64,000 nucleotides of DNA, taken from Nocardiopsis terrae. GTDB lineage: Bacteria > Actinomycetota > Actinomycetes > Streptosporangiales > Streptosporangiaceae. Positions 52,104 to 64,000 of this stretch are shown piece by piece. The number at the start of each line of letters is the position of its first letter. Positions within the stretch are counted from its first letter, which is position 1. A model generated the notes under the pieces. The model searched no databases, was not told the DNA's origin, and saw only the letters and a program-made list of their open reading frames with translations. The stretch lies in the NCBI RefSeq assembly GCF_014651695.1, contig NZ_BMXJ01000004.1:554076-618075 (forward strand), in the 5' to 3' direction. The position numbers and the translations under genes are program-made.

Positions 52104-53417
52104 ATGCCCGAACCGAAGCCCGCCCCACCCGCGACGCCCGGCCCCGGCACCGCCGCGGGAGCCCCCTCAGCCCCCTCAGCCCCGTCGGCCTCCGGCACAC
52201 GGCACCCGCACGGCGCCCTCGTGGTCCTCCTGCTGTCCTCCACCCTGGGCATCATGTCGAGCACGATCCTCATGCCGGTGCTCGAACTCATCCGCACCGA
52301 CCTGGAGATCAGCGCGACCCGGGCCGGAACCCTGCTCACCGTCAACGGACTGACCGTCGCCGTCGTCAGCCCGCTCACCGGCTGGCTCGTGGACCGCGTG
52401 GGGGTACGCGGGCCGATGTTCGCCGGTCTCCTCCTCTACGGCCTGGCGGGAGGGGCCGGACTGGTCACCGACGACTACACCCTGCTGCTGGCCGGCCGGG
52501 TCGTGTTCGGCATCGGCGCGGCCACGGCCTTCTCGGCCACGACGGTCGCCCTCCTGAACGGTTACCGGGGAGCGGACCGCGACCGGGTGATGGGCTGGCG
52601 GACCGCGGCCACCGGCCTGGGCGGCGTGCTCTGGCCGATCCTCGGCGGCGCGCTGGGCGCGATCTCCTGGCAGGCGCCGTTCGCCGTGTACCTGGTCGGG
52701 ATCCCCGTGGGCGCGGCCGCGCTGTTCCTGTTCGGCTCTTCCGGGCCCGCGCGGAGCGGACCGGTCGGCGAGCGCCCCGCGGAGGTGACCACCCTGCGGG
52801 CGGCGGTGGCCGCGCAACCCGCGCTCCTGGGCGTGTTCGCCCTGTCCGGCGTGTACATGGTGCTCACCTACGGCCTGCTGGTCTTCCTGCCCCAGCGGCT
52901 GGCGGAGCTCGGTGTGCACGACCCCGCGGCGGTCTCCGTGCACGTGGCCGCGGTCACCGGGACATCCGCGCTGGTGGGCGTCGCGTACGCGCGGCTGCGC
53001 CGGGTCCTGGGCGTCAACGCCCTGCTGCGCACCGCAGCCGTGCTGTGGACGGCGGCCTTCCTGCTGCTGGGGCTGGCCGACGCGCGCGCGGCCCTGGTGG
53101 CGGCCGCGGTCCTGGTGGGAGCCGGCGGCGGAGTGTGGCTGACCTCGCTGACCGTGCTGGTGGGCGCACTGACGCCCGCTCCGGTGATGGGGCGGGCGAG
53201 CTCGGTCTCCAGCACGATGGTCTTCGTCGGGCAGTTCCTCTCGCCCCTGGCCCTCGGCCCCCTGATGGCGGCCACCTCGATCAGCGTCGGCCACCTGGTG
53301 CTGGCCGGGGGCGCTGGGGCCCTGGCCCTGGTGCTGTCGTTCGTGCGGTTCCCGACAGCTCAGAACTCCCCCGGGCAGGAGGAGCCCGCCGGGGGCACCT
53401 CGCCGTACAGGAGGTAG
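52104..53417 (+). CDS. MFS efflux-type transporter
   Basis: A 437-residue MFS protein with twelve predicted transmembrane segments after a Pro/Ala/Ser-rich N-terminal tail of about 40 residues. Motif A-like GWLVDRVGVRGPMFAG follows segment 2, and DYTLLLAGRVVFGIGAA the fourth. Regulation by the divergent TetR gene supports drug or toxic-metabolite export; the substrate is unknown. ATG 52104 has AGAGG 7 nt upstream. The last 58 bases overlap the convergent hydrolase gene, making the C-terminal 19 residues (rich in Gly/Pro/Ser) tail-like. Confidence 0.88.
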   Translation: MPEPKPAPPATPGPGTAAGAPSAPSAPSASGTRHPHGALVVLLLSSTLGIMSSTILMPVLELIRTDLEISATRAGTLLTVNGLTVAVVSPLTGWLVDRVGVRGPMFAGLLLYGLAGGAGLVTDDYTLLLAGRVVFGIGAATAFSATTVALLNGYRGADRDRVMGWRTAATGLGGVLWPILGGALGAISWQAPFAVYLVGIPVGAAALFLFGSSGPARSGPVGERPAEVTTLRAAVAAQPALLGVFALSGVYMVLTYGLLVFLPQRLAELGVHDPAAVSVHVAAVTGTSALVGVAYARLRRVLGVNALLRTAAVLWTAAFLLLGLADARAALVAAAVLVGAGGGVWLTSLTVLVGALTPAPVMGRASSVSSTMVFVGQFLSPLALGPLMAATSISVGHLVLAGGAGALALVLSFVRFPTAQNSPGQEEPAGGTSPYRR

Positions 53418-54934
53418 GCGTCCACCACCCGGTCGACGCAGGACCGTCCGCCCGCGTAGGCCGTGTGGCCCCCGCCCTCGTAGGTGAACAGGGTCGCGGA
53501 GGCCAACTGGTCGGCCAGCTCGCGCGCCCACGCGTACGGGGTGGCGGGGTCGCCCCGGGTGCCCACCACCAGGATCGGCGGCGCCATCGGGGCGCTCACC
53601 CCGGTGGGGACGACCTCGGTGACGGGCCAGTGGGCGCAGGGCAGCAACGACCACACCTGATCGCCCCCGAAGAGCGGGGAGAGGTCCGCGGCGCGCCGGG
53701 CGCCCTCCCGGTACTCGCGGGGGTCGGTGGGGTTGGTGTGGTCGGCGCAGCGCACCGCCGTGAACGCGGACTCCTCCGACCCCGATTCCCCGCCCCGGGG
53801 TGCGAGGGCGCCCTCGAGGTAGCCCCGGACGAAGTCGTCCCCGGTGTCGCCCGCCGCGAGCCGGGCGAGGAGCCGGGCCGCGTTCTCCCACCTGTGTTCG
53901 GTGTACAGGGACTCGCGGAGCAGCACGAGCAGTTCGTGGCGGCCGACGCCGCCCTCCTCGAGGACGACCGGGTCGGCGGCGACCCCGGACAGGATCGCCT
54001 CCGTCTCGGCGGTGGCCTGCGCCGCGTCGGTGAACGGGCACTCCGGCGCCCGCTCCAGGCAGTAGTCGACGAAGGTCTCCCAAGCGGCCCGGACACCACC
54101 GCTCTGCTCCACCCCGTCCGCGATGACGTCACGCTCGATCTGCATCGCCCCGTCGAGGACCAGGGCCCGGGTGTTCTCGGCGAACATCTCGGCGTACAGG
54201 GCCCCGATGCGGGTGCCGTAGGAGAAACCCACGTAGTTCAGTCGGCGGTCGCCGAGGGCGTCGCGGAGGATGTCGAGGTCGCGGACCACGTTGACGGTTC
54301 CCGTGTTGGCGAGGAACTCCTCACCGACCTCCTCGACGCAGCTTCGGGCGTAGGCCTCGGCGGCCTTGTCCAGCTCGCGGAGACGCGCGTCGGTGACCTC
54401 CTGCGCTCCGAGGTTCCGGAGCGCCTCCAGGGGCGCCCGCATGGCCCGCCACCGCGGGCAGGTGAACCCCGCGCTCTCCCCCACCCCGCGCGGGTCGAAG
54501 GAGACCAGGTCGAAGGAGGCGCGTGTCTGCCTGCTCAGGGGCAGGGGGCCGCTCCTCATCCGTTCGACCCCGGGGACGCCGGGGCCGCCGAAGTCGAACA
54601 CGAGGGAGCCGCGCCGCTGTTCGGCGGGCCCCTGGGCGGGGTGCCTGACCACCGCCATGTCGATGGTCCCGCCCTCGGGGTCGCCGTGGTTGACGGGGAC
54701 GGTGACGGTGCCGCACTCCAGGCGCGAGGTCCAGTCGGGGTCGCCCTCGGTGTCCTCGGCGGCGGCGAGTTCCTCCGGGGTGAAGCACGGCTGCCAGTCG
54801 ACGGCCTGGCCGTAGAAGGGGAGTTCGCCGTCCCACCGGTCGGCCGGGGCGAAACCCGCCGCCGCGACCAGCACGGTCGTCAGACCCACGGCCCCCAGGG
54901 CCCTTCCGCCAGCGCAGCGCACCCGCACGCCCAC
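53360..54934 (-). CDS. Exported TAP-like alpha/beta-hydrolase
   Basis: A 524-residue secreted alpha/beta hydrolase of the actinomycete tripeptidyl-aminopeptidase-like (TAP/SlpD-SlpE) group. An N-terminal signal peptide (about residues 1-30) precedes the fold. The catalytic triad is visible: Ser in YVGFSYGTRIGALYAE, Asp in VVGTRGDPATPYAWA and His in EGGGHTAYAG. A cysteine pair near the C-terminus (RSCVDRVV and SSCPGEF) and others in the lid suggest disulfides. It probably cleaves short peptides or esters outside the cell. A paralogue lies next to it. The start could be a few codons shorter. Confidence 0.9.
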   Translation of the reverse strand: MGVRVRCAGGRALGAVGLTTVLVAAAGFAPADRWDGELPFYGQAVDWQPCFTPEELAAAEDTEGDPDWTSRLECGTVTVPVNHGDPEGGTIDMAVVRHPAQGPAEQRRGSLVFDFGGPGVPGVERMRSGPLPLSRQTRASFDLVSFDPRGVGESAGFTCPRWRAMRAPLEALRNLGAQEVTDARLRELDKAAEAYARSCVEEVGEEFLANTGTVNVVRDLDILRDALGDRRLNYVGFSYGTRIGALYAEMFAENTRALVLDGAMQIERDVIADGVEQSGGVRAAWETFVDYCLERAPECPFTDAAQATAETEAILSGVAADPVVLEEGGVGRHELLVLLRESLYTEHRWENAARLLARLAAGDTGDDFVRGYLEGALAPRGGESGSEESAFTAVRCADHTNPTDPREYREGARRAADLSPLFGGDQVWSLLPCAHWPVTEVVPTGVSAPMAPPILVVGTRGDPATPYAWARELADQLASATLFTYEGGGHTAYAGGRSCVDRVVDAYLLYGEVPPAGSSCPGEF

Positions 54935-55104
54935 CTCCGCCCCGAACTGCGAACCATCGAAGCCTCCATACTCCGGGTCATCGTTCGTGCCTGCGCGGTG
55001 AACATCCCGGCGGAGGGGTAAACACTCCGTACGGGTGGCTTTCCGGTGCCTTTTACCGGTGGCCCCGTACCGGTGGTCCAGGCCCGGCCCTGCCCGCGGG
55101 GCCG

Positions 55105-55136
55105 CCGGTCCCGCCCGGGCGGACGGGCGGGACCGG
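55105..55136 (-). terminator. Terminator after the TAP-like lipoprotein gene
   Basis: Perfect 13-bp stem CCGGTCCCGCCCG and its complement with a 6-nt loop, beginning 6 nt past the stop of the minus-strand gene at 55142. Confidence 0.78.
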
Positions 55137-55141
55137 GGCGG

Positions 55142-56803
55142 TCAGTACTCCTCGGGAGCGCAGAAGTGTCCGCTGCCGGGCACCACGCCCTCCAGGAGGT
55201 AGGTGTCGACCACGTCGTCCACGCAGTCGTTGTAGCCGAAACCGTAGGCCCCGTGGCCCGAGCCCTCGTAGGTGACCAGAGTGGCGCTCTCCAGCCGCTC
55301 GGCCAGGTCCTGGGACCAGGAGTAGGGGGTGGCGGGGTCGCCGACCGTGCCGACCACCACGATCGGCGGGGCGTCCGGGGCGGTGAACCCGTCCGGCGAC
55401 GCCTCGGCCTCGACCCAGTGCGCGCACACCATCAGGGGCCACACCGCCACCCCGCCGAACAGCGGGGAGGCGTCGTGGGCGCGGACCATGAGGTCGCGGT
55501 GGTCGGCGGTGTCGACGGCGCCGGCGTCCACGGGGTTGTCGGCGCACTCGATCGCGGTCCGCGCGGTGTCCGCCCTGGCGTGCTCCTCCTCGAACTCGTC
55601 CGGGTGTCCGTAGGCGAACGTGTACAGGTAGGAGAGGAAGTAGGCGGCCCGCGGGTGGTCGCTCGCGGCCAGGTCGGCCAGGGCGTCACTGAGGTCGGGC
55701 CACAGGTGCTCGTGGTGGAGGGTCCGGGAGGTGACCTCCAGCATGACGTCACCGTCGATCACGACCTCCTCCGCCCCCTCCGGTTCGTACAGGACGAGGG
55801 GTTCCTCGTCCAGGTCCCCGAGGATCCGGGACATCTCCCCGGTCGCCCGGTCCGGACCGCTGAACGCGCAGTTGTTGCGGTTGTCGGCGCAGTTCTCGAC
55901 GAACAGCTCCCAGGCCGTCTGGACGCTCCCGGCCCGGTCGACCAGCGCGTCCTCCGGGGCGATGTCCAGGTCCACCCCGCCGTCCAGCACCATCGCCCCG
56001 ACCCGGTCCGGGTACAGCTCGGCGTACACCGAGCCGAGGTGGGTCCCGTGGGAGTAGCCCACGTAGGTGAGCTCGTCGTCGCCGAGGACCTGGCGCAGCA
56101 GGTCCATGTCACGTGCGACGTCGACGCTGCCCATGTGCGCGAGGAGGTCCGCTCCCGCCTCCTCCGCGCACGCCTCGGCGTACTCCCGTGCCGCCTCGTC
56201 CAGGTCCCGCAGGTCAGTGTCGGTGAGGTCGTCCGGTTCGAGGTCCCAGGACAACAGGTCCTCCCACCGGTCGCTCCCCCACACCTGCGCCCAGTTCTCC
56301 CTCTCAGCACCTTGGCAGGAGGCGGAGTCCCTACCGCCGACCCCGCGCGGGTCGAAGGAGACGAGGTCGTGGGCCGCACGGACCTCGGGGCTGAGGATCT
56401 CCTGGGAGAGCATCTCCATGCCTCCGGCCCCGGGGCCGGAGGGGCTGAACACCAGCGAACCCCGTCTCTGCTCGGCGGGCCCGGTGGCGGGCTGGCGGAA
56501 CAGGGCGATCTGCACCCGTTCCCGCCCGGGGTCGTCGTAGTCGAGGGGAACCACCATGGCGCCGCACTCCAGGCCCTGCAGCCAGTCCGCGTCCACCTCC
56601 CAGTACTCAACGATCTCGTCGATCTCCGACTGGGCGTAGCAGGCCTGCCAGTTCACCTGCTGACCACGGAAGCGTTCGAGTTCGAGGGCCCCGCCGAACT
56701 GCTCGGTGACGCCCTCCCCGATCACCGGGATCAGGGAACAGCCGGTGGTCAGGGCCATGACGAGCGCACCGGCGGCCAGGGCCGGGGTAGATCCGTACCG
56801 CAC
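55142..56803 (-). CDS. TAP-like alpha/beta-hydrolase lipoprotein
   Basis: A 553-residue paralogue of the preceding hydrolase. The signal peptide ends in MALTTGC, a lipobox, so the protein is probably anchored to the outer face of the membrane. The nucleophile Ser is in YVGYSHGTHLGSVYAE, Asp in VVGTVGDPATPYSWS and His in EGSGHGAYGFG; conserved cysteines remain in the C-terminal TAP domain (YNDCVDDVV, HFCAPEEY). GTG 56803 is preferred because CGGAG lies 8 nt upstream and it gives a normal signal peptide; the frame to 56905 covers what looks like promoter sequence. Unlike its neighbour it is highly acidic. Confidence 0.9.
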   Translation of the reverse strand: MRYGSTPALAAGALVMALTTGCSLIPVIGEGVTEQFGGALELERFRGQQVNWQACYAQSEIDEIVEYWEVDADWLQGLECGAMVVPLDYDDPGRERVQIALFRQPATGPAEQRRGSLVFSPSGPGAGGMEMLSQEILSPEVRAAHDLVSFDPRGVGGRDSASCQGAERENWAQVWGSDRWEDLLSWDLEPDDLTDTDLRDLDEAAREYAEACAEEAGADLLAHMGSVDVARDMDLLRQVLGDDELTYVGYSHGTHLGSVYAELYPDRVGAMVLDGGVDLDIAPEDALVDRAGSVQTAWELFVENCADNRNNCAFSGPDRATGEMSRILGDLDEEPLVLYEPEGAEEVVIDGDVMLEVTSRTLHHEHLWPDLSDALADLAASDHPRAAYFLSYLYTFAYGHPDEFEEEHARADTARTAIECADNPVDAGAVDTADHRDLMVRAHDASPLFGGVAVWPLMVCAHWVEAEASPDGFTAPDAPPIVVVGTVGDPATPYSWSQDLAERLESATLVTYEGSGHGAYGFGYNDCVDDVVDTYLLEGVVPGSGHFCAPEEY

Positions 56804-56933
56804 GTGGGCGGCTCCGTTCTGGGAGGGGGACGTGTCTCTGGGTGGACGGTTGCGCGCCTCGGACGGTTTGCGACCCACCAGTAACAAATAGGACAAATAG
56901 CCCATAAGTAGTTCAGGGCGGGGATACGGCGGG

Positions 56934-59120
56934 TCAGATCCTGCTCACGTCCGTCGTGAGCAGGGCCGGCGGGGCCTGCGGGTCCACCTCGACGACCAGC
57001 GGCCGCAGCGGGTCCCCGAAGCGGATCGCCGGGGCCGGCCGGTCGCCTCCGCCCCCTTCACCGGGGTCGGCCTGGGAGATCCAGGCCACCAGCTCGCCCG
57101 CCCGGGCCACGTCGCGGCCCGGGCGGGTCAGGGCCAGGACCGTCCCGGCCACGTCGCAGCGCACGTTCAGGTGCAGGGTCGCCGCGAACACGCTCTGCGC
57201 CCAGGCCCCCGGGCTCACCCCGCGCAGCGGTCCGCCGGGGGTGCGCCGCCGCAGGCGCGCGGGTGCGGCCAGTCCCACGGCCCGGTCTCCGAAGGTCAGC
57301 ACCAGGCCGGGCCGTTCCTGCGCGGTCAGGAACCCCTCCGGGTCGGCCAGGGTGACGTCCCACCACACCTGGCACTCCCCCGACGCGGCCGCACCGAGGG
57401 CCGCCCCCGCCGACTCCAGGAGCGCCACGTCCACCTGGTCCCCGGCCGGTCCGGTGACCAGGCCGCCCAGGGGCGCGGTCAGGGGCCGGTAGCCGGACAG
57501 CACCAGTGACCAGTCGATCCCGGCCCGCCCCTCCAGCGGTCTGCGGCCGTGGGTCAGGCAGACCAGGGCCCGTTCCCGGGCCAACTGGTAGGTGGCGCAG
57601 GCCCCGTGGAACCGGGCGGCCCCGGCCAGCCCCAGACTCATGGCCTTGGTCCCGGTGGTGATGTCCACGACCACCGGGCGGCCCTCCTCCCGTTCGCGTC
57701 CGATCCATCCCCGCGCGGCCCGGTCGACCGCCTCGGAGTCGTAGCCGTCCACCGGCTCAGCCGACAGCCGCACCCGGTCCCGGTAACCCTCGGCGCGCAG
57801 GGCGGCGGCGTCGGCCGGGGGCGCGCCCGGGCGCTCGGCGGAGCGCAGCGTGCCCGCCGCCGCCTCCCGGACCCCGGCCCGCAGGCTCTGTTTGGAGGAC
57901 AGGACCAGGGTCCGGGCCGGGCGGTGGGCGTGTACGGCGGCCAGGGTGCCCAACCTGCTTCCGCCCAACGGGGTGACCAGGAGCGGGGCGTCCCGGGGGC
58001 CGGGATGGCGGGAGGGCGGCCGGAGCGGGCCGGAAGCGGGGGCGGCCGGAGCGGTCCCGGCGGTCCCCGGCGGGTGCGGGGTCGTCGCCCCCGGGGCGGA
58101 TCTGCTCGGCGGCGTCCAGGCCAGGCTCGGGAAGAAGGCGTCGCGCAGCGCCGTGAAGGAGGTAAGGCGTTCCAGCAGGGCGTCCAGGTGCCACACGTGG
58201 ACCTGGCGCGCGGACAGGGCCGGGTTGTACTCGGTGACCTGGTCGCGCAGGTCGGCCGCGGGCGGCCCCGAGTGGACGAAGAGGACGTGGGTGGCGCCGC
58301 CGAAGACCCTGCGCGCCTTGGCGACGGTCCAGCCCGCACGGGCGACCACGTCCTCGGCCCGGGTCTTGGCCTCCACGCACAGCACCCGGTGGCGGTGGCG
58401 GACCAGGACGTCGAAGTCGGCGACGGAACCGCCGGGGCGGAAGGGGTCGGCCACCTGTCGGGCGCCGAGGACCTCGGTCTCGGGCCGTCCGCGCAGCAGG
58501 CGGCGCAGGTGACGGAGCAGTCGGCCCTCGGCCGCGATCCCGTTGCGCTCGCCCTCGGGCAGGTGCGGGAAGGCTTCTGCCAGGGCGCTCTCCCCGCCCC
58601 GCACGAACAGGCGCACGGGTTCGGGGTCGCGGTCCGCCAGCCAGCGGGCGCCGTGGATCCCGGCCAGGGTGCGCAGGTCGACTCCGCGGCCGGTCACCGC
58701 ACGGCCGGGGCGCGCGGTGTCGGCGGTGCGGAGCAGGTCGCTGTGGGAGTCCAGGTAGTAGCGCCAGGCACGGGCCCGGGGCGGCAGTGCGCGTTCGTGG
58801 TGCAGGGCGGCGACCACACTCATGACCTTGGTGCCGCCGGTGTAGTCGAGGTGCCAGGGTCGTCCGTCGAGTGCGCGCCGGACGGTCTCCAGGAGGCCGG
58901 TGACCCGATCGGGGTCGTGCGGGTCCGGTCCCACGCTGAGCACGCGCGCCGAACGGTGCGGGGCGATGCGTCCGACGGCCTCCGCGACCCGTCGGGCGAC
59001 GGTCAGGGTCCCGTCGCTGGCGACCAGGACGAGCTGGTCGGCGGGCAGGGTCAGGCAGGAGAGCAGGGCGGGGGTCGGGTTCTGCCCCACGAGGACGACG
59101 GCGGCACGGGGTGCGTCCAC
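56934..59120 (-). CDS. CARF-nuclease-CARF protein (Can1/Card1-like)
   Basis: A 728-residue protein. An N-terminal Rossmann-like domain (about residues 1-140) has VVLVGQNPTPALLSC and the CARF motif DYTGGTKVMS near residue 92. A PD-(D/E)XK nuclease domain follows (about 190-290): EGRLLRHLRRLL (Glu198), ADFDVLV (Asp237) and CVEAKT (Glu250, Lys252). After a Pro/Thr linker (335-375) a second CARF-like domain (380-520) carries VVDITTGTKAMS near residue 486. The C-terminal 190 residues are unassigned and lack an obvious ExK. CARF domains bind cyclic oligoadenylates made by type III CRISPR Cas10. The layout resembles a fused Card1/Can2 dimer, as in Can1. GTG 59120 has GGGAGG 7 nt upstream. A RAMP protein 3.5 kb away supports the link. 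Confidence 0.82.
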   Translation of the reverse strand: MDAPRAAVVLVGQNPTPALLSCLTLPADQLVLVASDGTLTVARRVAEAVGRIAPHRSARVLSVGPDPHDPDRVTGLLETVRRALDGRPWHLDYTGGTKVMSVVAALHHERALPPRARAWRYYLDSHSDLLRTADTARPGRAVTGRGVDLRTLAGIHGARWLADRDPEPVRLFVRGGESALAEAFPHLPEGERNGIAAEGRLLRHLRRLLRGRPETEVLGARQVADPFRPGGSVADFDVLVRHRHRVLCVEAKTRAEDVVARAGWTVAKARRVFGGATHVLFVHSGPPAADLRDQVTEYNPALSARQVHVWHLDALLERLTSFTALRDAFFPSLAWTPPSRSAPGATTPHPPGTAGTAPAAPASGPLRPPSRHPGPRDAPLLVTPLGGSRLGTLAAVHAHRPARTLVLSSKQSLRAGVREAAAGTLRSAERPGAPPADAAALRAEGYRDRVRLSAEPVDGYDSEAVDRAARGWIGREREEGRPVVVDITTGTKAMSLGLAGAARFHGACATYQLARERALVCLTHGRRPLEGRAGIDWSLVLSGYRPLTAPLGGLVTGPAGDQVDVALLESAGAALGAAASGECQVWWDVTLADPEGFLTAQERPGLVLTFGDRAVGLAAPARLRRRTPGGPLRGVSPGAWAQSVFAATLHLNVRCDVAGTVLALTRPGRDVARAGELVAWISQADPGEGGGGDRPAPAIRFGDPLRPLVVEVDPQAPPALLTTDVSRI

Positions 59121-59214: not shown

Positions 59215-59577
59215 TCAATGGAGTACTTTCTCCCCTTCGCGGTCGCGGACCGGAGCGGAGGTGAGCACGAGGGAACGGCAGCCGGTGACCACCCCCCGGT
59301 CGTCGCGGACCAGGTCGGAGGGGACCAGCAGGTCGTCCCGCTCCGGATGGGCCGAGCTCACGACGGAGGAGACGATGAACCACACCCCCTCGACGGGTTC
59401 GGGCAGGACCGCGCGGGTGCGCTCCTCCGCCATGAGCGGCACGCCCTCCACCTCCCGCAGGGGGAACCGGACGGCCTCGACCCTGGCGGGTTCGGGCGAC
59501 TCGGGCCAGCTCCGGATCACGCGTGCCTGTTCGTCGACGACCGTCACCACGTGCGAGGTCAGATTGACCACGGGCAT
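59215..59577 (-). CDS. Small unassigned protein upstream of the CARF nuclease
   Basis: A 120-residue protein beginning MPVVNLTSHVVTVVDE, with VWFIVSSVVSSAHPERDDLLVPSDLV and VVTGCRSLVL later. I have a general impression of small NLTPH-like uncharacterised proteins in mobile or defence settings, but no function is known to me. ATG 59577 has GGAGGT 6 nt upstream. The gene ends 94 nt before the CARF nuclease start on the same strand, so the two are probably cotranscribed. No signal peptide or membrane segment. A role as partner, inhibitor or companion of the nuclease is speculative. Confidence 0.7.
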   Translation of the reverse strand: MPVVNLTSHVVTVVDEQARVIRSWPESPEPARVEAVRFPLREVEGVPLMAEERTRAVLPEPVEGVWFIVSSVVSSAHPERDDLLVPSDLVRDDRGVVTGCRSLVLTSAPVRDREGEKVLH

Positions 59578-59940
59578 CCGGCGACCTCCCGCTCCCTCTC
59601 GCTCCATGCCGACCGTCCGCTTCGTCCGAACAGCCGCGACGCACCCCGCTCCGAGGCCCTCACCGCACTCTCTCGGACACGGGTCGGTGTCCCCTGGAGG
59701 AGAACAGCGCTGTTAATTCTGAGCCCCGTGTGAACAATGACCGATTAATTGAAAGTTTTCACCCTTAGTCGCTTTCAGTACCATGGTCGGCAATTGACAT
59801 TCCAGCAACAGCGGTCCTACTTTGTTGTACGACCTCCCGTTGACGCAGGAGTGTCACCGAAGGATCACGCCTCGTTCGCGCGTTTCCCCGGAAGGGCTGG
59901 GGAAGCGTCCCAGCCCCGGAGCATCCGGGGAGAAGAGTTC
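59578..59940. other. AT-richer divergent promoter region of the CARF locus
   Basis: About 360 bases between the minus-strand pair and the divergent Cys-rich gene. The stretch 59710-59830 is notably AT-rich for this genome. It includes a single ATTGAAAG (59745-59752), a string often found at the 3' end of CRISPR repeats, but without repetition. An ORF continuing upstream of 59941 to 59749 has no coding character. Confidence 0.5.
59794..59823 (+). promoter_or_regulatory. Possible promoter of the Cys-rich protein gene
   Basis: A consensus -35 hexamer TTGACA (59794-59799) followed after 18 nt by TACTTT, a weak -10 match. It would start transcription about 110 nt before the GTG at 59941. Confidence 0.4.
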
Positions 59941-61149
59941 GTGAGCAAGCACCACTGCTCCGCCGGTGAGCTGTTCGGTTCGGCGGCCTTCCTACGCGTG
60001 TTCACACGCGTCCTGGGCTGCGGGCCGTGCTCGGCGGACGGAACCGCGCAGGGCTGCACCAGCCACTCCGAGCAGTTCTGCGACTACGTCGACCTGTGCT
60101 TCGAGCACTGCGCGTGCGCCGGACACGGCGGCGACCCGCGCGGCGTCGTGGCCGTGCGCATGGCCCGGGCCGAGCCCGGCGCCGACGGTACCGGCGGTGT
60201 GGACCGCACCGCCGCGCACCGGCTCCGCGACGCCCTGGACGACGTCCGCCGCGACCGGTCCTACAAGAACCTGCGCCGCGTCTACCCGCAGCCCGCCCCC
60301 GACGGCAGGATCCGCTGCGCCTTCTCCGAACGCCCCCGGCGCTGGGCCCAGCGCCGCGACGTCGCCCGGATCGCCACCGACGTGGTCGAGCAGGAGGCCC
60401 TGGCCATGCTGGTACTCACCGCCGGGTGGGGGAACCCCGCCGCCGACCTGCCCGAGGACGTCCGCCCCGGCGATTCGGTGTCGTTCACCGAGGACGGCGA
60501 CGCGGTCCCCGTCGCGGACCTGCACGGGCGCCCGCTCACCGCGGTCCGGGAGCCCCCGATGGTCTCCACCGCCACCGGCGACTACCTGCTGCGCAAGCTC
60601 GCCGAACTCGCCGCCGGCCGTGACGCCGACTCCGGCCGCACCCCCGACCAGCGCCGACGCCTGCTCCTGCGCCGGTTGCTGCCGGCCATGAACGGTGAGG
60701 ACGTGGCGCGCAGGCTCACCGGGGTACTGGGCCGGATGGCCGTGGACATGCCCGGCCACTTCGCACTGGTCCAACAGGCCAGGGGGCGGTCCCGCAGCGC
60801 CCCCTACGCCCCCGTCCCCGACCCGCCCGCACGGCACGGGGACGCCCCCGGCGCCCCGGAGACGATCGGCCGCCGGCGCGAGGTCCTGGGCGAAAGCGAG
60901 CGGACGTGGCTGGGCCGGCTCGCCCGGGAACTGACCGCGCAGGCCCAGGCCCACCGGGCGGCCTTCGACGCCGACCCCCGGGGTTCGCTCGACGCCCTGC
61001 TGTGCCGCCTCCTGGAGGAGGGCCCCGAGCCCCCGGAGCTGTGGCGGGGCGCCCAGGACGAACCCGACCGCCGGGCCGACCTGCTGGAGGCCCTCGCCGA
61101 GACCATCAGCGGCTCACCCGTGCCGACTACCTCGCCGCCAGCGCCGTGA
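59941..61149 (+). CDS. Cysteine-rich protein of unknown function at the CARF locus
   Basis: A 402-residue protein. Eight cysteines lie within the first 60 residues (6, 27, 30, 39, 47, 53, 57, 59), with histidines at 4, 5, 42, 56 and 62, suggesting a zinc or Fe-S site: CGPC, then CTSHSEQFC, then CFEHCAC. CSAGELFGS near the N-terminus faintly recalls the CxxxxLFG motif of RAMP proteins, but no RAMP glycine loop follows. The rest is helical and Arg/Asp-rich, with no known domain. GTG 59941 has GGGGAGAAG about 7 nt upstream. It overlaps the convergent HAD gene by 23 bp. I do not know its function; the location suggests it belongs to the CARF/RAMP locus. Confidence 0.65.
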   Translation: MSKHHCSAGELFGSAAFLRVFTRVLGCGPCSADGTAQGCTSHSEQFCDYVDLCFEHCACAGHGGDPRGVVAVRMARAEPGADGTGGVDRTAAHRLRDALDDVRRDRSYKNLRRVYPQPAPDGRIRCAFSERPRRWAQRRDVARIATDVVEQEALAMLVLTAGWGNPAADLPEDVRPGDSVSFTEDGDAVPVADLHGRPLTAVREPPMVSTATGDYLLRKLAELAAGRDADSGRTPDQRRRLLLRRLLPAMNGEDVARRLTGVLGRMAVDMPGHFALVQQARGRSRSAPYAPVPDPPARHGDAPGAPETIGRRREVLGESERTWLGRLARELTAQAQAHRAAFDADPRGSLDALLCRLLEEGPEPPELWRGAQDEPDRRADLLEALAETISGSPVPTTSPPAP

Positions 61150-61819
61150 CCAGTTCGTCCAGTCCCTCGAAGCACCAGTCGAAGGAGTCGGAGCCGGTAG
61201 GCGGATCGCCGTCCGGCCGCCGCACGTAGGCGGTCCGCATGCCCCTGGTCCGGGCGCCACGGAGGTCCCACGCGTGGGCGGCCACCATGAGCACGCGTTC
61301 GGGCGAGTGCCCGGCGGTAGCGATGGCCAGCTCGTAGAGCTCCGGCGCCGGCTTGTAGGCCAGGACGGACTCGCCGGACAGGGCCTGGTGCCAGCGCAGC
61401 CCCGCGTGCGCGCTGAGCCGTAGCAGCGCGGTGCGGCTGGCGTTGGAGAGCCCGATCACCGGCAGCGTCCGGGCGAGCCGGTCGAGCCCGGAGACGGAGT
61501 CCTCCCAGGGGGGCAGACGCTGCCCGGCCGTGGCCAACCAGGAGATGCCGTCAGGGTCGGCGAGTCCGGCCCGGTCGGCCACCCGCCGGGCGGCCTCGGC
61601 GTCGATGGTCTCGCTGGTGGCGTACGCGCGGCGTCCCCGGGCGACGCGGCCCTGTTCGAGGGCGACGTACCGCTGCCACGAGGTGGTCAACTCGTCCACG
61701 GACACGTCTTCGCACCCGGGCACGGCGTCGCGGATCGCCGCCCGGAGTCCGCCGGGTTCGTCGACCAGCGTTCCGAGGACGTCGAAAACGACCGCCTCGA
61801 TATCGCGGATTCCGGCCAT
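61127..61819 (-). CDS. HAD-family hydrolase, L-2-haloacid dehalogenase type
   Basis: A 230-residue HAD enzyme resembling (S)-2-haloacid dehalogenases. Motif I is VVFDVLGTLVDE with the nucleophilic Asp but with Leu after Val instead of the usual Tyr/Phe, motif II is VIGLSNASR, motif III the Lys in LAYKPAPELY and the final acidic motif is VAAHAWDLRGA, typical of type II dehalogenases. True dehalogenase activity is uncertain; many relatives are phosphatases. It is divergent from the CGNR regulator over 80 bp containing two copies of one inverted repeat, so it is probably that regulator's target. Confidence 0.88.
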   Translation of the reverse strand: MAGIRDIEAVVFDVLGTLVDEPGGLRAAIRDAVPGCEDVSVDELTTSWQRYVALEQGRVARGRRAYATSETIDAEAARRVADRAGLADPDGISWLATAGQRLPPWEDSVSGLDRLARTLPVIGLSNASRTALLRLSAHAGLRWHQALSGESVLAYKPAPELYELAIATAGHSPERVLMVAAHAWDLRGARTRGMRTAYVRRPDGDPPTGSDSFDWCFEGLDELVTALAAR

Positions 61820-61837
61820 GCGCCCCTCGCCCTCATT

Positions 61838-61862
61838 TCGTCACCACCTCAACAGGTGACGA
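61838..61862. promoter_or_regulatory. Operator copy 1: TCGTCACC-N9-GGTGACGA
   Basis: Perfect 8-bp inverted repeat with a 9-bp spacer, 19 bp from the HAD start codon. The core CGTCACC-N9-GGTGACG recurs at 61878-61900. Confidence 0.68.
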
Positions 61863-61877
61863 TTTTGCCGTCAACGT

Positions 61878-61900
61878 CGTCACCGGTCAAGATGGTGACG
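61878..61900. promoter_or_regulatory. Operator copy 2: CGTCACC-N9-GGTGACG
   Basis: Perfect 7-bp arms with the same 9-bp spacer as copy 1; its right arm ends on the first base of the GTG start of the CGNR gene. Centre-to-centre distance from copy 1 is about 39 bp. Binding here would block CGNR transcription or translation start, implying autorepression. Confidence 0.68.
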
Positions 61901-62466
61901 TGAACTTCGTATTCGTGAGCGGTGATCCGGCCCTCGACCTGGCCGCGACGGTGCTGTCCCGCCGTGGCGAACGCATCGACCTCCTGTCCGAGCCCGCGGA
62001 CCTGGAACGGTGGACGAGTCTCTGCGACGGCCTCCCCGACCGGGTGAGCGCCGACTCCGCGACCTTCGAGTCCGCTCTCTCCCTGCGTGAGGCGATCTAC
62101 CGACTCGCCCTCGACCGTGTGCTCGAACGGCCCTTCGAACCGGAAAGCCTCAAGGCCGTCAACGACACCGCCGCCGGTCCGCTGCCCTCGGTCGAACTCA
62201 CCGACGCGGGGCTGCGTGTGTCGGGGGACCTGACCTCCGCTCTCTCCCTCGTGGCCAGGAGCGCCGTCCTCCTGCTCGCGGACCCCGGCGCCCGCCTCAA
62301 GGAGTGCGGTCGCGTCGACTGCACCCGCATCTACCTCGACCGCTCACGGGGCGCCCGGCGCACCTGGTGCGGGATGGACGAGTGCGGCAACCGGGTGAAG
62401 GCCGCGGCCTACCGGGCTCGCAGGCGCGCCTCCGCCGCGGACGGGGAACGAGGGCCCAACGGCTGA
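61900..62466 (+). CDS. CGNR zinc-finger transcriptional regulator
   Basis: A 188-residue protein with an N-terminal ABATE domain (about residues 1-125) and a C-terminal CGNR zinc finger: LKECGRVDCTRIYLDRS, then WCGMDECGNRVKAAAYRARRR. The finger cysteines and the CGNR motif are intact, predicting DNA binding with stress- or ligand-sensing by the N-terminal domain. GTG 61900 sits at the edge of an operator copy, so the transcript may be leaderless or nearly so. It faces the HAD hydrolase gene divergently and converges with the RAMP gene. Confidence 0.9.
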   Translation: MNFVFVSGDPALDLAATVLSRRGERIDLLSEPADLERWTSLCDGLPDRVSADSATFESALSLREAIYRLALDRVLERPFEPESLKAVNDTAAGPLPSVELTDAGLRVSGDLTSALSLVARSAVLLLADPGARLKECGRVDCTRIYLDRSRGARRTWCGMDECGNRVKAAAYRARRRASAADGERGPNG

Positions 62467-62529: not shown

Positions 62530-64000
62530 TCATCCTGCGTCTGCTCCCCCGAACCGTTCGGTGAGCGGGGGCAGGACCGGGTACTCGGCGAACTGGCGCA
62601 GCGACATCACCGCTGTCTCCGACCACGGCAGACGGCCCCGCCACCGGCTGGCCAGGAGCACGTCCACGACCTGGTCCACCTCCCTCCAGTCCTCCGTTCC
62701 CCGGTACCCCGCCAGGGCCGCGGAGAAGGCGCCCAGGAAGGCCTCCACCCGTTCCCCGGAGGCACGGGTGACCCCTGCGGCGGGGCTCAGGGAGAGGTCG
62801 GCGGCGCGGGCGCGACGGTCGACCAGGTGGAGTTCGGGGCGCAGGTGCACGCTGCCCATGCCCAGGGACTTGCCCATGCCGATCTTGTGGGCGTGCCCGG
62901 GGTCCGCGGGGTCTCCCCCGTCGGCGGGGTTGGCCAGGAGCAGGGCCCGCATCAGGGCGCCGAGTTCGGCGTCGGTGAGGTTGGTGAAGGTGACACGGGA
63001 GCGCAGGGTGAGGCCGTCACGGAGCGGGACGATGTCGCGCTGGGTGTCCCGGGGCGGCACGGCCTCGGCTCCTCGGGGGACCACCGTGATCCCGAGTTCG
63101 GTCCGGGCCCGCTCGTCGTAGCGGACCGGCGCGCCCAGGCGTGGGTCGTGCCGGTGCAGGTAGGCCTTGTACCCGCCCAGGCGGATCCGCCCCTCGTGCG
63201 ACCAGGTGACGATGTCGGGCCGCTCGCCCGCCGCCGCGTCGGGGCCCTGGGCGAGGTAGTTGGCGAAGCAGCCGCGCTGCGGGGAGAGCAGCTGCACCCG
63301 CAGCGCGGCGCCGTCGGGGTAGTCGGGGTCGGGGTCCGTACTCAGGGCGTTGCCGAAGGAGACCCGGCCCCGGAGCGCTCCGGCCTCACCCGCGAAGACG
63401 TCGGTGTCGCCGAACACCGCCCGGCACACGTCGACGGTGCGCCCGGCACGGTCGGTGCGGTCCGGGTCGCCGTGCTGGGGCCCCAGGACCCGCCCGGGTA
63501 CGGCGCGGCGGATCGGGTTGTCGTCGCTGACCGCGATGCGGTACCCGCCGGAACGGCCGAAGGAGACCACCCGGCCGGAGGGGTCCACGTCGAACCAGAC
63601 CGGTTCCAGGCCCCGTCGGGGCAGACCGCCGCCCCCGGTCCCGGCGACGGGGGGCCGGACCGGGTCACCGTCCCCGGTGCCCAGGGTCGGGGGGAAGGCG
63701 GCCCGCTGGTAGCCGGTGACCTGCTCCGCCGACTCGAACAGCTCCACCATGGCGTCGGGCACGGGGCGGCGGCCGGTCCGCAGGTCCGGTGGTGCGGGGA
63801 AGAGGTAGGCGTTGCGCCGCTCCTCGGCGGCGGCCCCGGTCAGCACGAGCAGTGCCGGGACCACCCCGCCGTGTCCGGGGCCCGCGCACCCGGAGTTCCC
63901 GTGCCCGCAGCCCGTGTGTTCGTGCCGCACGCCGCTCCCGGCGCGTTCGGCCAGGCGGGCGCGGGCCTGCGGTTCGGTGGGGGCGACCGCGGCGACCCCG
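62530..64000 (-). CDS. RAMP-superfamily CRISPR-type protein, 5' end beyond window
   Basis: At least 490 residues in a frame open to the window edge; the start is not visible (a GTG at 63930 is in frame but internal to the open frame). The sequence resembles the TIGR03986-type CRISPR-associated RAMP proteins: ALRGRVSFGNAL, VQLLSPQRGCFANYLAQGP, RIRLGGYKAYLHRHD and, near the end, KIGMGKSLGMGSV, a glycine-rich RAMP loop. RAMP proteins form backbone subunits of type III effectors. A short Cys/His/Gly-rich stretch (HTGCGHGNSGCAGPGHGG) lies before the first recognisable part and could bind a metal or be a linker. Other subunits presumably lie to the right. Confidence 0.78.
   Translation of the reverse strand, partial: GVAAVAPTEPQARARLAERAGSGVRHEHTGCGHGNSGCAGPGHGGVVPALLVLTGAAAEERRNAYLFPAPPDLRTGRRPVPDAMVELFESAEQVTGYQRAAFPPTLGTGDGDPVRPPVAGTGGGGLPRRGLEPVWFDVDPSGRVVSFGRSGGYRIAVSDDNPIRRAVPGRVLGPQHGDPDRTDRAGRTVDVCRAVFGDTDVFAGEAGALRGRVSFGNALSTDPDPDYPDGAALRVQLLSPQRGCFANYLAQGPDAAAGERPDIVTWSHEGRIRLGGYKAYLHRHDPRLGAPVRYDERARTELGITVVPRGAEAVPPRDTQRDIVPLRDGLTLRSRVTFTNLTDAELGALMRALLLANPADGGDPADPGHAHKIGMGKSLGMGSVHLRPELHLVDRRARAADLSLSPAAGVTRASGERVEAFLGAFSAALAGYRGTEDWREVDQVVDVLLASRWRGRLPWSETAVMSLRQFAEYPVLPPLTERFGGADAG

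Follow-up and report, generated by a model that had tools for sequence, protein, structure and literature searches.

The joining of a CARF/PD-(D/E)XK pair in one chain has been studied in Can1 of Thermus (PDB 6sce), which has the order CARF, nuclease-like domain, CARF, and active PD-D/ExK domain, so that the inactive nuclease stands second and the active one last. It is activated by cA4, is a monomer, and nicks supercoiled DNA. Published accounts describe Can1 as apparently limited to Thermus (PMC6981274, PMC9704534) and Can2 as having one CARF domain per chain and acting as a dimer (PMC7969007). Csm6-2, with the order CARF-HEPN-CARF-HEPN, is described as an effector of type III-D loci in which a dimer is fused into one chain (PMC11229360) and is also reported together with Crn4 (PMC12830947). 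The Crn4 family, earlier named Unk01, is described as degrading cyclic oligoadenylates, with Crn4b acting on cA4 and cA3 and reported either with Can2 or without a recognized effector (PMC12830947). Our search found no literature on CARF proteins together with type III CRISPR in Nocardiopsis; the 2020 CARF classification lay outside that search and may describe the protein presented here.

We analyzed a stretch of 64,000 nucleotides from Nocardiopsis terrae (the window), in which a minus-strand gene at 56934..59120, with a GTG start at 59120 and its stop at 56934, encodes a 728-aa protein with the order CARF1, PD-(D/E)XK nuclease, CARF2, and C-terminal domain. This protein is probably the cyclic oligoadenylate-activated effector nuclease of an adjacent type III system, working as a monomer with Crn4 as its off-switch. 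It shares with Thermus Can1 the presence of 2 CARF domains in one chain, but its intact site lies in the second domain and the last domain is without one. It also differs from Can2/Card1 (DUF1887), since two CARFs are found in its single 728-aa chain instead of one CARF and one nuclease, and from Csm6-2, where a HEPN RNase takes the place of PD-(D/E)XK, although the dimer-in-one-chain fusion and the association with Crn4 are common to both. We file the protein as Can1-like in its working, and not as Can1, because both CARFs are present whereas the domain order is different.

The architecture itself is already catalogued by PADLOC as CARF4--CARF_PDDEXK_CARF (PDLC01901), which matched at 1162.8 bits over its full length (residues 11-727 of 728 on model positions 1-690 of 691). 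We found no difference from that family, whose label leaves the C-terminal domain unnamed and, we believe, comes from the 2020 CARF survey. An earlier sequence-only reading of this gene had proposed a single-chain, asymmetric, Can1-like layout, and this much is borne out; the swap of the active half relative to Thermus Can1 had not been stated in it, and neither the existing PADLOC family nor the adjacent type III system figured in it, so that its interpretation stands in part.

CARF domains and nuclease site

CARF1 (58773..59111, minus strand; residues ~4-116) carries the motif YTGGTK at 58827-58844, and CARF2 (57549..57995, minus; residues 376-524) the motif TTGTK at 57645-57659. The sequence-only reading had recognized the CARFs from these motifs, and both profile and fold comparisons identified a CARF domain in each half. 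Similarity between the two halves of the protein is confined to the surroundings of the CARF motif. The PD-(D/E)XK domain occupies 58086..58670 (minus; residues 151-345), with E198 at 58527-58529, D237 at 58410-58412, E250 at 58371-58373, and K252 at 58365-58367. A NERD match on this domain was obtained in 18 of 18 members. No credible solved relative of the nuclease domain was found by sequence, only chance-like rows. The sequence match to 6sce, at 0.23, lay among chance rows. A weak alignment (17.4 bits, E 3.2e-4) connects residues 167-289 with the C-terminal part (441-564) of the PADLOC Can1 model PDLC01902, which we assume to be the Thermus protein.

In an alignment of 35 sequences, TGGTK (94-98), D486, T488-K492, E198, D237, E250, and K252 were invariant. 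With 9 relatives from other genera added, E198, D235, D237, E250, K252, K268, K98, and K492 were invariant in 46 of 46 sequences, an alignment from which 3 of the 40 genus sequences were left out (2 with broken frames and 1 cut); every residue that had been named from the sequence alone is present. Among the 9 distant relatives, T97 is replaced by Ser in 4, T489 by Ile in 1, and D92 by Cys in all 9.

Ring nuclease, cas operon, and conserved linkage

A Crn4-type ring nuclease gene of 120 aa (59215..59577, minus; PADLOC Unk_01) lies between the CARF gene and the cas operon and matches PDB 9r7b (Crn4b) at E 1e-10, as well as 9qs9 and 9sma (Crn4a). The Thr and His of its NLTxH motif, together with the DLVR Arg, are retained across the genus and in 8 Crn4 copies from other genera and, by our own count on the alignment, appear to correspond to T13, H15, and R112 of Crn4b. 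This relation and the conserved Thr, His, and Arg place the gene in the Crn4 family by sequence. Unlike published Crn4b, it adjoins a fused CARF nuclease, and its position there is the best sign that messenger signaling is in use.

On the same strand, 3.4 kb upstream of the CARF gene, is the end of a type III cas operon, most of which lies beyond the end of the window. It was read from 31 kb around and beyond that end (L047) by PADLOC, Pfam, and conservation, and encodes, from 5' to 3', Cas6 (586 bits), Cas10, Cas7, Cas5 (900 bits), a double Cas7, Csx25 (423 bits), and a further Cas7, whose gene reaches into the window. This RAMP gene, at 62530..64000 on the minus strand and continuing to about G000:C4:618869, matched PF03787 (3.8e-11) and PADLOC Csm3 (382 bits). 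With Cas10, Cas5, and Cas7 in one operon, the locus is a type III effector locus. One Cas7 retains an Asp pattern resembling what we take to be that of RNA-cleaving Csm3, and the pattern is absent from 1 of the 8 distant loci with that Cas7 (L119).

The Cas10 gene (PADLOC "Cas10h", L047:14906-16798, 1041 bits) showed no HD match, and Pfam gave this Cas10 no match at all. It has AGDD instead of the common GGDD; AGDD was present in 31 of 31 genus loci, alongside an H-x-D-x-N motif with its Asp in 30 of 30 and its His and Asn in 30 of 31, and both motifs were present in all 9 loci from other genera. Published work counts AGDD among the variants of this motif in Cas10s that are probably active and reports HD in 3% of III-D loci (PMC11229360). 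PADLOC labels the cas genes IIIh, and its other matches include III-D models. Subtype III-H, as described in 2025, combines an inactivated Cas10 palm with an HD domain, lacks CARF genes, and is reported from archaea and a small number of bacterial MAGs (PMC12669027); the present locus differs from that description in its conserved AGDD, the lack of a Pfam HD match in Cas10, and the linked CARF gene. The PADLOC letter of 2023 and the subtype of 2025 may be different things.

A search for Cas10 with PF22335 came up empty in the window's own genome, which would make the CARF gene an orphan; this idea was rejected, as PF22335 misses the adjacent Cas10 that PADLOC finds. A different Cas10 matching PF22335 was identified away from the locus in 9 of 37 genus genomes (L035-L042, L096-L100), with 2 in G032, and some Nocardiopsis species thus appear to carry 2 or more type III systems.

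The CARF nuclease gene was identified in all 37 Nocardiopsis genomes searched (frame broken in 2) and in 0 of 23 others. An order-wide family search recovered it in 36 of 101 genomes, comprising 27 Nocardiopsis and 9 of the remaining 74, the latter from 4 other genera of the family. Within the genus, the fetched sequences show the same gene order as far as they extend; out of 39 loci from 37 genomes, 36 had Crn4, 31 had Cas10, and 28 had Cas6, the rest being truncated at the end of a contig or of the fetched stretch, and one genome in 970 contigs (G026) had the CARF gene and no RAMP match. The order in other genera differs, Cas6-Crn4-CARF-Cas10: CARF is followed directly by Cas10 in all 9 loci and preceded by Crn4 and Cas6 in 8 (all except L119), Cas7 comes after Cas10 in 8 of 9, and Cas5 was reached in 7 of 9 before the fetched sequence ended. 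In L113, the 1.2 kb retrieved downstream of cas10 contained an array and showed no Cas7. The linkage of CARF and cas genes thus outlives rearrangement. Distance matrices of CARF and Cas10 were correlated within the genus (r 0.80) and overall (r 0.945), numbers that mostly show shared descent because they stand without an unrelated control gene.

The locus at L119:11995-19558 keeps the CARF nuclease and Cas10, with an array beside it and no Crn4 or Cas6 found. Two orthologues are ~150 aa longer than the others (882 aa at L120:14387-17032 and 900 aa at L121:3041-5740). Relatives were also sought in viral contigs, plasmids, and phages, in part with a search limited to close ones, and none were found.

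Proposed mechanism, C-terminal domain, and alternative readings

In the mechanism that we favor, binding of target RNA by the Cas7/Cas5/Cas10 complex would lead Cas10, through its AGDD cyclase site, to make a cyclic oligoadenylate, most likely cA4. Both CARFs of one chain would close around a single messenger molecule, as in Can1, with the protein presumably remaining a monomer, and this closure would license the single PD-(D/E)XK site of the N-terminal half to nick or cut a nucleic acid substrate. The C-terminal domain may fill the role of the nuclease-like domain of Can1, as a DNA cleft or a grip on the substrate, and the neighboring Crn4 would end the response by degrading the messenger.

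The C-terminal domain (56937..57500, minus; residues 541-728) had been described from the sequence as having no obvious ExK, and indeed no ExK is conserved in it across the 46-genome alignment. Searches of Pfam and PDB and profile-profile comparison gave no credible match to a family; a receptor row (0.93) and Peptidase_C25_C, a weak match in 3 of 29 members (best 0.025), were taken as chance. It had also been suggested that the second effector domain had been replaced or had decayed; decay is ruled out by the pattern of constraint, and either a replacement or an inactive nuclease fold would fit the data. Median dN/dS was 0.31 for CARF1, 0.25 for the nuclease, 0.30 for CARF2, 0.35 for the C-terminal domain, and 0.58 for the linker, over 81 pairs at 75-95% identity (77 usable for the linker) that share sequences and hence are not independent. 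The nine distant orthologues are 36-43% identical to the window's protein in this domain and 36-42% in the nuclease. From the dN/dS values and this nuclease-like conservation across genera, we conclude that the C-terminal domain is functional and constrained.

What that function is divides the readings. We would not expect it, but it is quite possible that the C-terminal domain has a separate function of its own, for example nucleic acid binding, dimerization, or a second enzymatic activity, and, with the same reservation, that a Can2-like half was joined to a different CARF protein rather than Can2 being duplicated. Such an origin would account for the lack of similarity between this domain and PD-(D/E)XK families or the N-terminal nuclease, a comparison that gave no support for homology of the two domains, and for the best profile matches, Can2 for CARF1 and Csm6 for CARF2. 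The fold table of the structure model reverses these matches, with its best rows being Csm6 for CARF1 and Can2 for CARF2, which weakens the argument for different origins. Structure prediction had been proposed as a check on the sequence-only reading; the AlphaFold model, built from a five-sequence alignment and with a mean pLDDT of 55.7 and a pTM of 0.38, bore out the CARFs and was poor outside them. In the C-terminal domain, where pLDDT is <60 in every ten-residue block, the modeled order is helix-strand-strand-strand-helix(-helix) (565-578, 583-588, 605-610, 613-618, 637-652, and 671-682), an order that a nuclease-like core could also show. On visual inspection, the two strands within 605-618 could match the pair bearing D237, E250, and K252, with small residues or Pro replacing the catalytic ones. 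Some Can2/VC1899 fold alignments extend to residue 614-651, which likewise speaks against a distinct domain; the fold table has no row for the C-terminal domain alone and gives no evidence of a new fold.

The supply of guides and the source of the messenger bear on 2 further readings. Our array scan (exact 16-mers, at least 3 copies, 40-95 bp apart) detected no arrays in the 39 genus loci, no direct repeats were found within the window, and of 3 further genus loci, 1 showed only a 45-bp tandem repeat in 3 copies. If CRISPR guidance had been lost at this locus, its cas genes and the CARF nuclease would form a guide-less signaling or stress module, which we consider unlikely; it would also fit the presence of the I-E repeat pattern in no more than 23 of 40 genus genomes (0 in the control) and of strong Cas1 (E < 1e-60) in 8 of 37. 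However, contig C5 of the window's genome starts with an array of 61-bp period that is cut by the contig end and counts at least 11 repeats, with a Cas1-like match 9 kb beyond it, and arrays of the same period with similar repeats lie beside the locus in 2 of the 9 relatives from other genera. The pattern was built from the repeats on C5, and we call such arrays I-E from features of the repeats and from the period; the genome-wide count covers this I-E-type pattern, and further repeat types exist in the genus. Cas6, moreover, is retained in each of the 28 genus loci whose sequence extends far enough. Guides are thus probably supplied by I-E-type arrays. Very improbable, in our view, is a messenger made by another cyclase or a CARF protein acting mainly as a messenger sponge. 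AGDD is a minority motif and a different Cas10, which could be a further source of the signal there, occurs in the 9 genomes mentioned above, but PF22335 finds no second Cas10 in the window's own genome, the nuclease residues are invariant, the cyclase residues of Cas10 are nearly so, and Crn4 is adjacent.

Returning to the messenger-activated fused nuclease, we tentatively suggest, with confidence somewhat short of even, that fused asymmetric nucleases of this kind have two origins, one keeping catalysis in the C-terminal half (Thermus) and the other in the N-terminal half (here), and that the present one belongs to a stably inherited, nearly genus-wide type III and Crn4 module that borrows I-E-style guides. 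As a mirrored second case beside Can1, the protein allows one to ask directly how a single active site can be enough and what the inactive half contributes. The compact set of a Cas10 without an HD match, one nuclease, and one ring nuclease could serve for testing messenger control in actinomycetes.

Other genes of the neighborhood

No Rfam match or tRNA was found in the window. A Cys/His-rich protein (PADLOC Unk_06, 683 bits) is encoded on the plus strand at 59749..61149, with its conserved part starting near residue 61 of the ORF. This divergently oriented gene of about 400 aa was present in 36 of 39 genus loci and 9 of 9 loci from other genera and is a candidate further component of the locus. 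Between Unk_06 and the cas operon (61127-62466) lie a HAD hydrolase gene and a gene that, from its sequence, we presume to be CGNR-like; they look like a local insertion in the window's genome, because no match to them appeared in the other 38 genus loci that were compared. Downstream of the CARF gene, at 53360-56905, are 2 alpha/beta-hydrolase (TAP-like) genes, the nearer of which was matched in 30 of 39 genus loci.
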